Origin: Myxococcales bacterium | Lineage (GTDB): Bacteria; Myxococcota_A; Polyangia; Polyangiales; JAFGIB01 | Direction: 5' to 3' | Assembly: GCA_028817905.1 (NCBI GenBank) | Contig: JAPPOR010001056.1 | Span: 1-32,381 of the forward strand | DNA length: 32,381 nucleotides | Shown: one piece after another, positions 4,390 to 20,344 of the stretch | How the letters are laid out: each line of letters opens with the position of its first letter | How positions within the stretch are numbered: the first letter of the stretch is position 1 | Program-made: the position numbers and the translations under genes | The notes under the pieces: generated by a model | What the model was told of the DNA's origin: nothing | The model's database searches: none | Seen by the model: the letters and a program-made list of their open reading frames with translations, nothing else

Positions 4390-4604
4390 CCCGGCGAGCG
4401 GGTGCTCCCGTGCCCGGCGTCTTTGTCGGACACCCGATTGGCTCGCATCCATCACCGAGGCACGTGATGCTCGTGCTAGCGATCGGCTTCGCAGGGGTTT
4501 CGGTGAAGGAGGGAATCCTCGCTGTGTGTTCGACTGAGGGCGAAAGCGCTGGGGAGTCGAGCAGTTGTACGAGGGCCCGTGATCTGGTGATGGATGCGGG
4601 CTGG

Positions 4605-8800: not shown

Positions 8801-9427
8801 ATGACGATCGTGGTGATCCGGCACGGTGAAACCGCCCTCAACCGTGCGCGCGTGGTGCAGCCGGCGGACACCCCGCTCAGTGACGTGGGTCAGCAACAGG
8901 CGCAGCGCTTGGCCGGGCGCGCCAGTGGGTGGCCGGTGGCCGCGGTCCTTTGTAGCGATCTGCCGCGCGCCCGTATGACTGCCGCGCCCATGGTCGCCGC
9001 GCTGGACTGCGAACTTGAGCTGACTCCACTGCTACAGGAGCGCAATTTCGGTGACTTGCGCGGGACGCCCTACGCGGAGCTCGAGGTGGACATCTGGGCC
9101 CGTGACTATCATCCGCCGGGTGGAGAGACCTGGGAGGTCTTCGAGGAGCGGGTCGCGCGCGCGTGGGACTGGGTCGTGGGGCGTGCGGACGAGTTCGGTC
9201 GGGCGGGTCGGACCGGTCACGTCGTGGTTGTGACCCATGGGCTGGTGTGTCGGACCTTTGCCGCACGCCACTGGGAGCTCCCTGGGGGCGCAGAGGTTCC
9301 CAGGTACTGGCACAACACAAGCGTTAGCTCGATCGCGCGCTTGGCGCCGCACAGGGCGGCGGAGCTCAACTGCGCAGCTCATCTCGACCCATCGCAACGT
9401 CCGGACGGCGGCGTTTCGGGGATCTAG
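8801..9427 (+). CDS. Histidine phosphatase family protein (phosphoglycerate mutase-like)
   Basis: VVIRHGETALNRARVVQ, LCSDLPRARMTA, VVVTHGLVCRTFAA. Confidence 0.9.
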   Translation: MTIVVIRHGETALNRARVVQPADTPLSDVGQQQAQRLAGRASGWPVAAVLCSDLPRARMTAAPMVAALDCELELTPLLQERNFGDLRGTPYAELEVDIWARDYHPPGGETWEVFEERVARAWDWVVGRADEFGRAGRTGHVVVVTHGLVCRTFAARHWELPGGAEVPRYWHNTSVSSIARLAPHRAAELNCAAHLDPSQRPDGGVSGI

Positions 9428-9515
9428 CTAGCGACCTTGAGTCAGGGTTTCGTGGACGTTTGCGTCAAGTTTGGTCCCGTTGCCTTGATCGCATGCGTCT
9501 GGACAAGGTCGCTAG
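9428..9515 (+). repeat. Palindrome-ended intergenic element, copy 1
   Basis: Perfect 12-bp terminal inverted repeat CTAGCGACCTTG (9428-9439) / CAAGGTCGCTAG (9504-9515). The 84-bp core 9430-9513 aligns ungapped with the reverse complement of 19513-19596. Confidence 0.85.
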
Positions 9516-9743
9516 GTCGCGCTGCGCGCTCCGGGGATGAGCTGCATGCGGGGGTGGTTTCGGATGGCGCCTGGGGCACATGCGTCGTTGGGCGGGGACG
9601 CCGAAATGGTGCACGCGCCCTTTCCCCCGCCGCGGCAAAGCCGCCCCATGCACACCCACCCGGACACCTTTCCGAGGATCGCGCCGCTTCCGGTGCGCCG
9701 AAGTCATGCACCGAAGTCATGCTTGATGCGGGCTGGCCGGTCT

Positions 9744-11765: not shown

Positions 11766-11902
11766 CTAGCCCGGATCCCTCATCGACTTCCCGGGACCTC
11801 GCTCGGTCTTCGACGTCCACGGGCTTTCGGCTACTTCACGAACTCAGTAGCATTCGGCCGGTTCCCGAAAAGCCCTGTGAAGCCGCGTCTCTGCGCGAAC
11901 CG
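11766..11902. repeat. Dispersed intergenic repeat, copy B
   Basis: Shares three modules with 1-67: 11865-11902 (direct), 11828-11845 (inverted), 11766-11776 (inverted). Confidence 0.55.
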
Positions 11903-12220
11903 CTCGCGTGTGGCTGGCTGATATGGCGTCCCGCCTTCGATGCCCGCGGGGGCACCCGGGGCGATCGCGTGGGCTGTTTCGAGGCGCGATCCAGCCCCTG
12001 CTGCGCCATGGAACCGCCGGCTAGCCCGGCTCCGTCGCTTCAACGCACAATTGCGATCATTGTACGCCTCCCTTGCGAAACCAAGACTACGTGACAGGGC
12101 CTTCAGAGCGCCCATACGACCGTGCAAACGCTTGCTTTGCAGCGGCTAGCACTTCTAGGAAGAAGGACCCGGGTCCCTGCGGCCTCGGTGCCGCTGTCCG
12201 CCACGAACAACGGCCCGGAA

Positions 12221-17219: not shown

Positions 17220-17416
17220 GGGAGCGCCTGCTCGTGTGTGGGGGGCTGTGTCGGGTGGATACTTGGCACGTCTAAACCTCGCTACAGACCTGTGTGAAAG
17301 CAGTATGCGCTACAACGGCGGGGGCTGCGAACGGAGCGGGGGATCGAGCGGGAAAGGCCGCAGATCGCGGTCCTGTGGCGGTGCGGGGGCGGGCTGCCCC
17401 TGCTATGCTGCCGAGA

Positions 17417-19495
17417 ATGGCGGCCCAGAGCGACGACAACCCGTTACTGACCATCGAACATCCCATTGCTTTTGACCGTATTCGCGCCGAGCACGTTGAG
17501 CCGGCGATCGAGGCTTTACTCGAAGAGGGTCGGCATCGTCTAGAGGCCCTGGCTACAGGCAACGGTCCACGTACCTACGAAAACACGCTTGGGGCGTTGG
17601 AGTCGATGACTGAGAGGCTCTCGCGGGCAATGGGCGTGATCGGCCACCTGGAATCGGTTGCGACTTCGCCCGAGTTGCGGGCGGCCTACAATGCTGTGCA
17701 GCCCCCGGTCAGCGCGTTCTTTTCTAGCATTCCCATGTCCGAAGGGCTATGGCGTGCCTTGCTCGCGTTCGCCGACACGGATGAGGCCAAGCGGCTCGAT
17801 CCAACTCGCGCGCGTCACCTGGCGCGCACCCTTGACTCGTTCCGCAGGGAGGGGGCGGAGCTGGACGAGGCGGGCAAGAAGCGCCTGTCCGAGCTCAACG
17901 TGGCTCTGGCCGAGGCGACCACGAAGTTCTCCCAAAACGTGCTCGACGCGACCAACGCCTTCGAGCTCATCGTCGAGGAACGCGCTCGGCTCGAGGGACT
18001 ACCCGAACGCGCCGTGGCCGCCGCGCGTCACAGCGCGCAGAGCAAGGGCCGGTCCGGCTACCGCTTCACGCTCCAGGCACCGAGTTTCGTGCCAGTGCTC
18101 AACCATGCCCATGACGCGGCCATTCGTGAGCAAGTCTATCGCGCCCTCAATACGCGCGCTCTGGGTGGTGATCACGACAACTGCACGCTCGTCGACCGCA
18201 TCCTGGCCCTGCGTCAGGAGAAGGCCGAGCTGCTTGGATATGACAACTTCGTGGACCTGGTGCTCGCTGACAGGATGGCGCGCACGGGCGACAAAGCCCG
18301 TGCGTTCGTGGCGGGCTTGCGGGCCAAGTCCGAAGAAGCCTTCAAGTCAGAAAACGATGAGCTCATGTCCTTTCGGCGCTCGCTGGAAGGTGAAGGTGCG
18401 CCTCCGCTGGAGCCGTGGGATGTTGGCTATTACGCGGAGCTGCAACGCAAGGCCAAGTACGACTTCGACGAGGAGGTCCTGCGTCCGTACTTCCCGGTGG
18501 ATCGGGTGTTCGAGGGAATGTTCGACCTGGTCCACAAGCTCTACGGCATTGCGGTGGAGGAGGCGACAGGATTGCCCGTATGGGATGCTAGCGTCCGGAC
18601 CTACCGGATCAAGGACAGGGATGGCGCTGAGCTGGGCGTGTTCTACGCCGACCTGTTTCCGCGTGAAACCAAACGCGATGGTGCCTGGATGAACGACTTT
18701 CTGACGGGCGAGCCGGAGGTCAACGGGTGGACTCCGCACGTCGGCCTCATTTGCGGAAACCTGACGCCGCCCCTTGGGGGAAGTCCCGCCCTGCTGGGTC
18801 ATCGCGAGGTTGAGACGGTCTTCCACGAGTTTGGCCATCTCTTGCATCACATGCTTAGCCGCGTGAGCGTGAAGGCCCTTTCCGGTACCAACGTGGCGTG
18901 GGACTTCGTCGAGCTACCCTCCCAGATCATGGAGAACTTCTGCTGGGAGCGCGCGAGCCTGGACCTGTTCGCTCGCCAGCACGAGACAGGCGAGCCCATT
19001 CCGGAGTCGCTGTTTGAGCGAATGTCGCGAGCGCGTACCTATCGCGGCGCGAACATGATGATGCGGCAGCTCGGCTTTGCGAGCCTCGATCTTGCGCTTC
19101 ACATGGATCGGCCGCAGCGCTTGGAGGCGGGTGGTTGTGAGGATCTGGTCGCCTACGCGCGGACTGTCATGCAACCGTTTGCGTCGGCGCCGCTAAGGGA
19201 CGACTACGCGATGGTGCTGAGTTTCGGGCACCTTTTCAGTCATTCGGTTGGCTATGCGGGAGGCTACTACTCCTACAAGTGGGCCGAGGTGCTCGACGCC
19301 GACGCGTTCAGCAGATTCCGCGAGGCAGGCCTGTTTTCGCCCGAGGTTGGCGGTGAGTTTCGGCACAAGATTCTCGAGAAGGGTGACAGCCGTGACCCGA
19401 TGGAACTCTTCGTCGATTTCATGGGCCGCAGGCCCGACGAAGCACCGCTCCTGGAGCGTTCGGGGATTCATCGCACCGAGCCCGGAACCCGATGA
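17417..19495 (+). CDS. M3 family metallopeptidase (oligopeptidase A-like)
   Basis: ATG at 17417 (MAAQSDDNPLLTIEHPIAFDRI); zinc motif HEFGHLLHHML; C-terminal SVGYAGGYYSYKWAEVLDADAFSRF. Confidence 0.93.
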   Translation: MAAQSDDNPLLTIEHPIAFDRIRAEHVEPAIEALLEEGRHRLEALATGNGPRTYENTLGALESMTERLSRAMGVIGHLESVATSPELRAAYNAVQPPVSAFFSSIPMSEGLWRALLAFADTDEAKRLDPTRARHLARTLDSFRREGAELDEAGKKRLSELNVALAEATTKFSQNVLDATNAFELIVEERARLEGLPERAVAAARHSAQSKGRSGYRFTLQAPSFVPVLNHAHDAAIREQVYRALNTRALGGDHDNCTLVDRILALRQEKAELLGYDNFVDLVLADRMARTGDKARAFVAGLRAKSEEAFKSENDELMSFRRSLEGEGAPPLEPWDVGYYAELQRKAKYDFDEEVLRPYFPVDRVFEGMFDLVHKLYGIAVEEATGLPVWDASVRTYRIKDRDGAELGVFYADLFPRETKRDGAWMNDFLTGEPEVNGWTPHVGLICGNLTPPLGGSPALLGHREVETVFHEFGHLLHHMLSRVSVKALSGTNVAWDFVELPSQIMENFCWERASLDLFARQHETGEPIPESLFERMSRARTYRGANMMMRQLGFASLDLALHMDRPQRLEAGGCEDLVAYARTVMQPFASAPLRDDYAMVLSFGHLFSHSVGYAGGYYSYKWAEVLDADAFSRFREAGLFSPEVGGEFRHKILEKGDSRDPMELFVDFMGRRPDEAPLLERSGIHRTEPGTR

Positions 19496-19510: not shown

Positions 19511-19596
19511 CTAGCGACCTTGTCCTGACGCGTCCAGTGAAAGTAGCGCGTTCAAGTTTGACTCAAACGTTCGCGAAACACTGACTCAAGGTCGCT
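19511..19596 (-). repeat. Palindrome-ended intergenic element, copy 2 (inverted relative to copy 1)
   Basis: AGCGACCTTG (19513-19522) / CAAGGTCGCT (19587-19596); reverse complement matches 9430-9513 at about 66 of 84 positions without gaps. Confidence 0.85.
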
Positions 19597-20344
19597 CGTG
19601 GGAAAGGTCCACCAGGTTGGCGGTGGGGACGCGTCGGTCAATGGACATGTACGCCAGGTTCAGCCAGGCCGTGCAGCGATCGAGGATGTCGCCATCGGCA
19701 CTGGCTACGATGTCGTTACAGCGTGACAGTACCGGGTCCGGGTCGGCGACCACCTCGGCTGCCAGGGGCCAGCCGCCGCGCCGGGCGTGTTCGTTGATCA
19801 GGGCCGCCAGCCGGCCGCTGTTGGATACCGGGCGGTCGAGCAGCAGCAAGCAGGAGGCCGCGCCCAATTCCCGGACGACGTCTGCGAGGATCGTCAGGGC
19901 CGGCACGGTTTCCTCGACCCGACGGTAGGACCCGTGCACACCCGCAATATCGCGAGCGGCCCCGTCACGGCCAACCAACACGATTCCCCCGGAAAGGGCG
20001 ACTTCCAAAGTGGTCAGGATGTTGAAGCCGTCGACCCAGAGGGGCCGGTCTCGCACCGCGTCGGGCGTGACCATGCGAGCCTGGCGCAGCCGCGCACGCT
20101 CGGGCGCACAGGCACAGCGGGAAACCGCGGCGCGCTGTCTACCCGACAGGGCGTGGCGATCGCCGACCAGCTTCAAGCTCGAGAGCGGCGCGTAGCCACG
20201 ACCGAGGAGCCAGCTGAGTTCCTCGGTTGCCGCGCACAGACTGGGACGTGCCGCGGGGCAGAACGCGACCGGATCGTGCGGGTGCAAACCGCGGTGTTTG
20301 CGGGTGTCCGGCATCGAGCCCTGAGAGGTGTGCAACCCGAGCAC
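19586..20344 (-). CDS. DUF434-like domain protein
   Basis: [39 protein letters not shown]...LWVDGFNILTTLEVALSGGIVLVGRDGAARDIAGVHGSYRRVEET...LLLLDRPVSNSGRLAALI. The true start may be downstream (e.g. 20314). Confidence 0.7.
   Translation of the reverse strand: MLGLHTSQGSMPDTRKHRGLHPHDPVAFCPAARPSLCAATEELSWLLGRGYAPLSSLKLVGDRHALSGRQRAAVSRCACAPERARLRQARMVTPDAVRDRPLWVDGFNILTTLEVALSGGIVLVGRDGAARDIAGVHGSYRRVEETVPALTILADVVRELGAASCLLLLDRPVSNSGRLAALINEHARRGGWPLAAEVVADPDPVLSRCNDIVASADGDILDRCTAWLNLAYMSIDRRVPTANLVDLSHERP

Follow-up and report, generated by a model that had tools for sequence, protein, structure and literature searches.

Small mobile elements that insert at TA and belong to the MITEs are well known in bacteria, among them RUP of the pneumococcus, ERIC/YPAL of the enterobacteria and Correia/NEMIS of Neisseria. 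Short mobile repeats of this sort are thought to gather at gene ends, and the usual view is that they do so because insertion there is least harmful. To our knowledge, anchoring on stop codons in a single orientation has been described neither for RUP, ERIC/YPAL or Correia/NEMIS nor for ordinary small transposons in general. The 84-base palindrome-ended element of the present study, here called E, shares with these three groups its small size, lack of coding capacity, inverted terminal repeats, TA duplication, high copy number and want of a transposase of its own, but it has a different sequence and, unlike them, it builds arrays with a second module, S (a list of bacterial MITEs is given in PMC3733652).

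Other described systems come close in single respects. IS630 of Shigella and ISY100 also insert at TA with a 2-bp duplication, and for IS630 PMC2170065 cites Tenzen and Ohtsubo 1991 for a preference for TA within CTAG; E, in contrast, contains no transposase, and its terminal repeat was matched here to no IS630 element. The GTAG REPs and BIMEs resemble E as repeated palindromes at the 3' ends of genes, in mosaic arrays and with termini that often give a TAG stop (PMC3733652), whereas REPs are single hairpins of 20-40 bp tied to RAYT and E is 84 bp long with one pair of terminal repeats and a TA duplication. MITEPsy1 of Pseudomonas syringae, a 100-bp MITE inserting at CTAG or YTAA, is similar as well, but a 4-bp duplication and a possible relation to IS5 were reported for it (PMC3189936), against the 2-bp TA duplication of E. 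E represents a novel family within a familiar class, the MITEs, and repeats that supply stop codons are not new; what stands out is its strict one-way placement, together with a control family of the same target that lacks the bias.

The window, i.e., the whole stretch of 32,381 nucleotides that was analysed, corresponds to contig C95 in a draft assembly of 11.1 Mb and 1110 contigs that is broken at repeats of the E type; the relatives of this genome suggest, at the level of a conjecture, a myxobacterium. The initial annotation had described two inverted 84-bp copies about 10 kb apart, with conserved ends and a diverged centre, the first lying directly after a phosphatase stop codon and bounded by TA on both sides. 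All of this was borne out (Table 1): the two copies form the longest inverted repeat of the window and share 79% identity over 86 aligned bases, their 10-bp ends matching perfectly. The extent of 84 bp is right for E itself, but the repeat at copy 1 is longer and continues into the 98-bp S module. Copy 2 is flanked by TA on one side only, its left flank reading CGAG in place of CTAG, and the final residues of the DUF434/DUF5616 gene, ERP, are encoded across the junction and the element.

Table 1. Positions of the two E copies and of the adjoining features in the window.
Feature	Coordinates	Strand	Remarks
Histidine phosphatase (PF00300) gene	8801..9427	+	3' end carries E copy 1
TAG stop of histidine phosphatase gene	9425..9427	+	Adjoined by the left junction of E, CTAG 9428-9431
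E copy 1	9430..9513	+	84 bp; terminal repeats AGCGACCTTG/CAAGGTCGCT; flanking TA 9429-9430 and 9513-9514
S module, positions 1-86 of ~98	9515..9600	+	Usual 3' companion of E
M3 peptidase gene	17294..19495	+	Convergent; ends 18 bp from right end of E copy 2
E copy 2	19513..19596	-	Solo, without S; TA of right end at 19512-19513, GA in place of TA at left end
TGA within E copy 2 (E positions 9-11)	19586..19588	-	Stop of DUF434/DUF5616 gene
DUF434/DUF5616 gene	19586..20344	-	Runs into E copy 2

Searching the whole genome with the element, as the annotation had advised, returned about 140 copies, far beyond chance. The end pattern CGACCTTG-N52-82-CAAGGTCG has 142 intact matches against 0 for a control pattern, at least one of those listed (C146:13536) having only the ends in common with E, and a stricter oriented end pattern has 122. 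The family comprises about 150 copies, about 140 of them intact; these counts are lower bounds, since a contig end is no more than 300 bp away from 48 of the analysed copies. E reads CTAGCGACCTTG / CAAGGTCGCTAG at its two ends, and across about 110 distinct copies the termini AGCGACCTTG/CAAGGTCGCT are invariant and the interior variable; some of these copies were gathered by end-anchored patterns, but the copies that BLAST retrieved have these termini too. Outside this genome, E was detected neither in 56 genomes belonging to the host's family and order nor in plasmids, a search of further genomes of the class gave a single match, of 33 bases and to the end of S, and no genome of the same genus was found for comparison. 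Matches to the end pattern in other organisms, obtained by scanning a genome collection, share only the ends and differ in the interior, and their number is close to the chance estimate. Two copies in all with none in relatives, or unconserved ends, had been named beforehand as grounds against a mobile repeat; the copies are many and their ends conserved, yet relatives contain none.

One and the same 84-bp E sequence recurs at as many as five places whose flanks differ, and further identical sets exist as well; identical copies at different loci are evidence of recent mobility. At 84 bp, E is too short to encode a transposase. Among unique flanks, TA borders E in 90 of 100 on the left and in 39 of 42 on the right; beyond it the outer bases are mostly C and G, and the element occupies a TA that usually lies inside CTAG. 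The comparison of empty with filled sites proposed by the annotation gave a single TA in the empty and a doubled TA in the filled site for two pairs (L208 vs L010, 98 bp at 98%; L182 vs L196), both of them paralogous and at junctions with another repeat family rather than orthologous, since no same-genus genome was found. A 4-bp duplication of CTAG is argued against by copies flanked TTAG..CTAG. E is short, multi-copy and non-coding, with terminal inverted repeats and a TA duplication, and the 2-bp length of that duplication agrees with the IS630/Tc1-mariner type. The annotation's suggestion of a TA-targeting MITE is supported by the copy number, the identical sets with different flanks, the TA flanks and the empty sites; the family name itself follows only the anatomy and the CTAG preference, by which E would be classed as an IS630/Tc1-mariner-type MITE.

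The genome yielded no match to DDE_3, and no intact IS630 transposase with E ends was found in the 1110 contigs of the assembly. The profile NF033545 gave sub-threshold matches only, one of which (L269; C434:92-310, minus strand) is a truncated N-terminal HTH_29 remnant of the IS630 type; the remnant adjoins a family C repeat. The remaining matches lie in IS21/IS110 loci or antisense to a gene and were discarded, as was an IS5-like remnant, which has no matching ends. Two other transposase loci are present, an IS110-type gene beside an IS21-like frame (L267, C1083) and a full-length IS21-like transposase (L268, C546).

Copies of E mostly lie exactly on the TAG stop codons of genes and nearly always in one orientation. 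Of the copies whose left flank is unique (n = 69), 53 carry a stop on that side, 49 of these at the left only and 4 at both ends, against 2 with a stop at the right only (orientation p ~1e-12); gene ends outside the Pfam-checked cases rest here on a codon-usage caller trained on the window genes, most of which are Pfam-supported. Copies unique on both sides (n = 22) behave in the same way, with 15 left-only, 2 right-only and 4 both, and the youngest copies point in the same direction by 18 to 0, so that selection, if any, must be quick. Divergent gaps contain none of 74 copies (0/74), although such gaps make up 43% of the intergenic bases of a 213-kb baseline. The usual stop is a TAG formed by the junction, its T coming from the flank and its AG from the start of E; in 4 copies, including copy 2 of the window, GAG replaces TAG, and the gene ends ...ERP at the in-frame TGA of E. 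Pfam domains were present in 9 of 10 upstream proteins tested, several of them complete to the C-terminus (SecF, TyrRS, Usp, acyl-CoA dehydrogenase), and this domain completeness indicates that E sits at native stops. Position after a stop codon, which the annotation had noted for copy 1, is the rule for the E family.

Of the CTAG sites in the baseline, 30 lie at stops, 59 elsewhere in noncoding sequence and 126 in coding sequence; as a null, stops account for 30 of the 89 stop-plus-noncoding sites, and loss of coding insertions would put the expected share at stops at about 17% per orientation. Within the same baseline (L270-L289 and the window), TAG makes up 42% of stops and CTAG alone 25%, which seems high for a GC-rich genome. 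A sister MITE, family B, uses the same CTAG/TA target; 13 of its 24 cases are at stops, with an orientation of 5 to 6 and thus no bias. E differs from B at p = 0.03 when all copies are compared and at p = 0.002 when only solo copies are. This same-target sister serves as an internal control and makes insertion bias versus selection directly testable. A palindromic TA/CTAG target offers no obvious means to set orientation, and the one-way pattern needs a further cause.

For the copy number, terminal repeats, TA duplication, stop position, one-way orientation and modular arrays observed here, the explanation that we hold, as a whole, to be very probable is that the 84-bp E is a MITE, a DNA transposon without autonomy. 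On this view it inserts at the TA of a CTAG or YTAR site and duplicates that TA, and its perfect terminal inverted repeat of 10-12 bp would most likely be recognised by a DDE transposase of the IS630/Tc1-mariner type. Since a G of E follows the TA, an element that enters a TAG or TAA stop rebuilds a TAG stop, and in the orientation seen it also provides an in-frame TGA nine bases on. Copies therefore accumulate as sense-oriented 3' tails of genes, consisting of E alone, of E followed by the 98-bp S module, or of (E-S)n-E arrays, the latter probably built at regenerated CTAG sites. E is thus a mobile element that rebuilds the stop codon that it enters and can become the gene's own stop. The orientation itself may stem from an insertion bias or from selection for the stop-proof, 3'-compatible direction, and we lean slightly toward selection. 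We entertain only tentatively, and with some doubt, the stronger idea that E is sent to, or kept only at, sense amber stops by a mechanism that reads the direction of transcription or translation; if true, it would be a stop-codon-homing mobile element providing a reusable 3' tail for scores of genes.

The orientation could instead reflect RNA function, with E acting as terminator, mRNA stabiliser or processing site, its spread owed to its use in 3' UTRs and its mobility secondary. We consider this unlikely, although the sense orientation at stops is what it predicts and the sense RNA does fold better than the antisense (mean -33 vs -26 kcal/mol). The sense strand is G/U-rich in 110 of 110 copies, and its advantage in stability is explained by that composition. 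Copy 1 as a whole folds better than its shuffles (z -4.7), but when the ends were fixed and the interior shuffled in 25 copies the mean z was about 0. Moreover, the covariation check that had been recommended showed none for the interior pairs: pairs were kept at 88.3%, both observed and expected, double changes were at chance, and RNAalifold of the copies retained mainly the invariant terminal stem. Neither a terminator-like T tract near copy 1 nor an Rfam match in the window was found. Because the interior pairs stay at the shuffle rate with z near 0, the palindrome is best read as the terminal repeats of a DNA element, and the REP-like RNA hairpin, which the annotation had judged equally possible, is not supported, as each end forms no hairpin by itself.

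A very unlikely origin, in our estimate, is a REP/BIME-like element or REPIN moved strand-specifically at the CTAG tetranucleotide by RAYT or by an HUH transposase of the IS200 type. Strand-specific insertion would yield the orientation naturally, the many copies, the 3'-end placement and the mosaic arrays of modules are REP-like, and GTAG REPs are reported to give, in many cases, the TAG stop of flanking ORFs (PMC3733652). E ends, however, pair only with each other and not as hairpins; TA is kept about equally on both sides; and TA (or CTAG) stands twice in filled and once in empty sites, which argues against HUH transposition, if not absolutely, as a CTAG-ended HUH element could mimic it. 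The genome does hold one clear Y1 gene, of the IS200 type (L171, C780), but no E-like ends lie in or near its locus, and it was rejected as the partner of E. An apparent left/right asymmetry of the flanks, of HUH type, vanished after copies beside other modules had been removed. That E is an attC-like site of an integron-type cassette system is hardly credible: it does lie directly after stops in one orientation, but its copies are dispersed after housekeeping genes (SecF, TyrRS and others) rather than in a cassette array, those of the window are 10 kb apart in opposite orientation, and its ends lack core sites of the GTTRRRY type.

Returning to E as a MITE, its usual neighbour S is about 98 bp long and reads TA-GGTCGCGCT...CCCCGC-TA. 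At dozens of loci, L018, L218 and L257 among them, it stands on the 3' side of E and is oriented alike, and E-S units build tandem arrays of the form (E-S)n-E. At some loci a variant, S2 (GGTCGCACCTnCGGTGC), takes the place of S, and its first hairpin carries what looks like a compensatory change. The genome contains further TA-bounded families, namely the near-palindromes B and C of about 164 bp and family D of about 81 bp. Copies of B and C lie in the window at 876-1034, 2-65, 11768-11922 and 4441-4602, and 31 stretches of these two families in 213 kb suggest more than a thousand in the genome. Additionally, about 30 copies of B are 99-100% identical to one query and mark a very recent burst.
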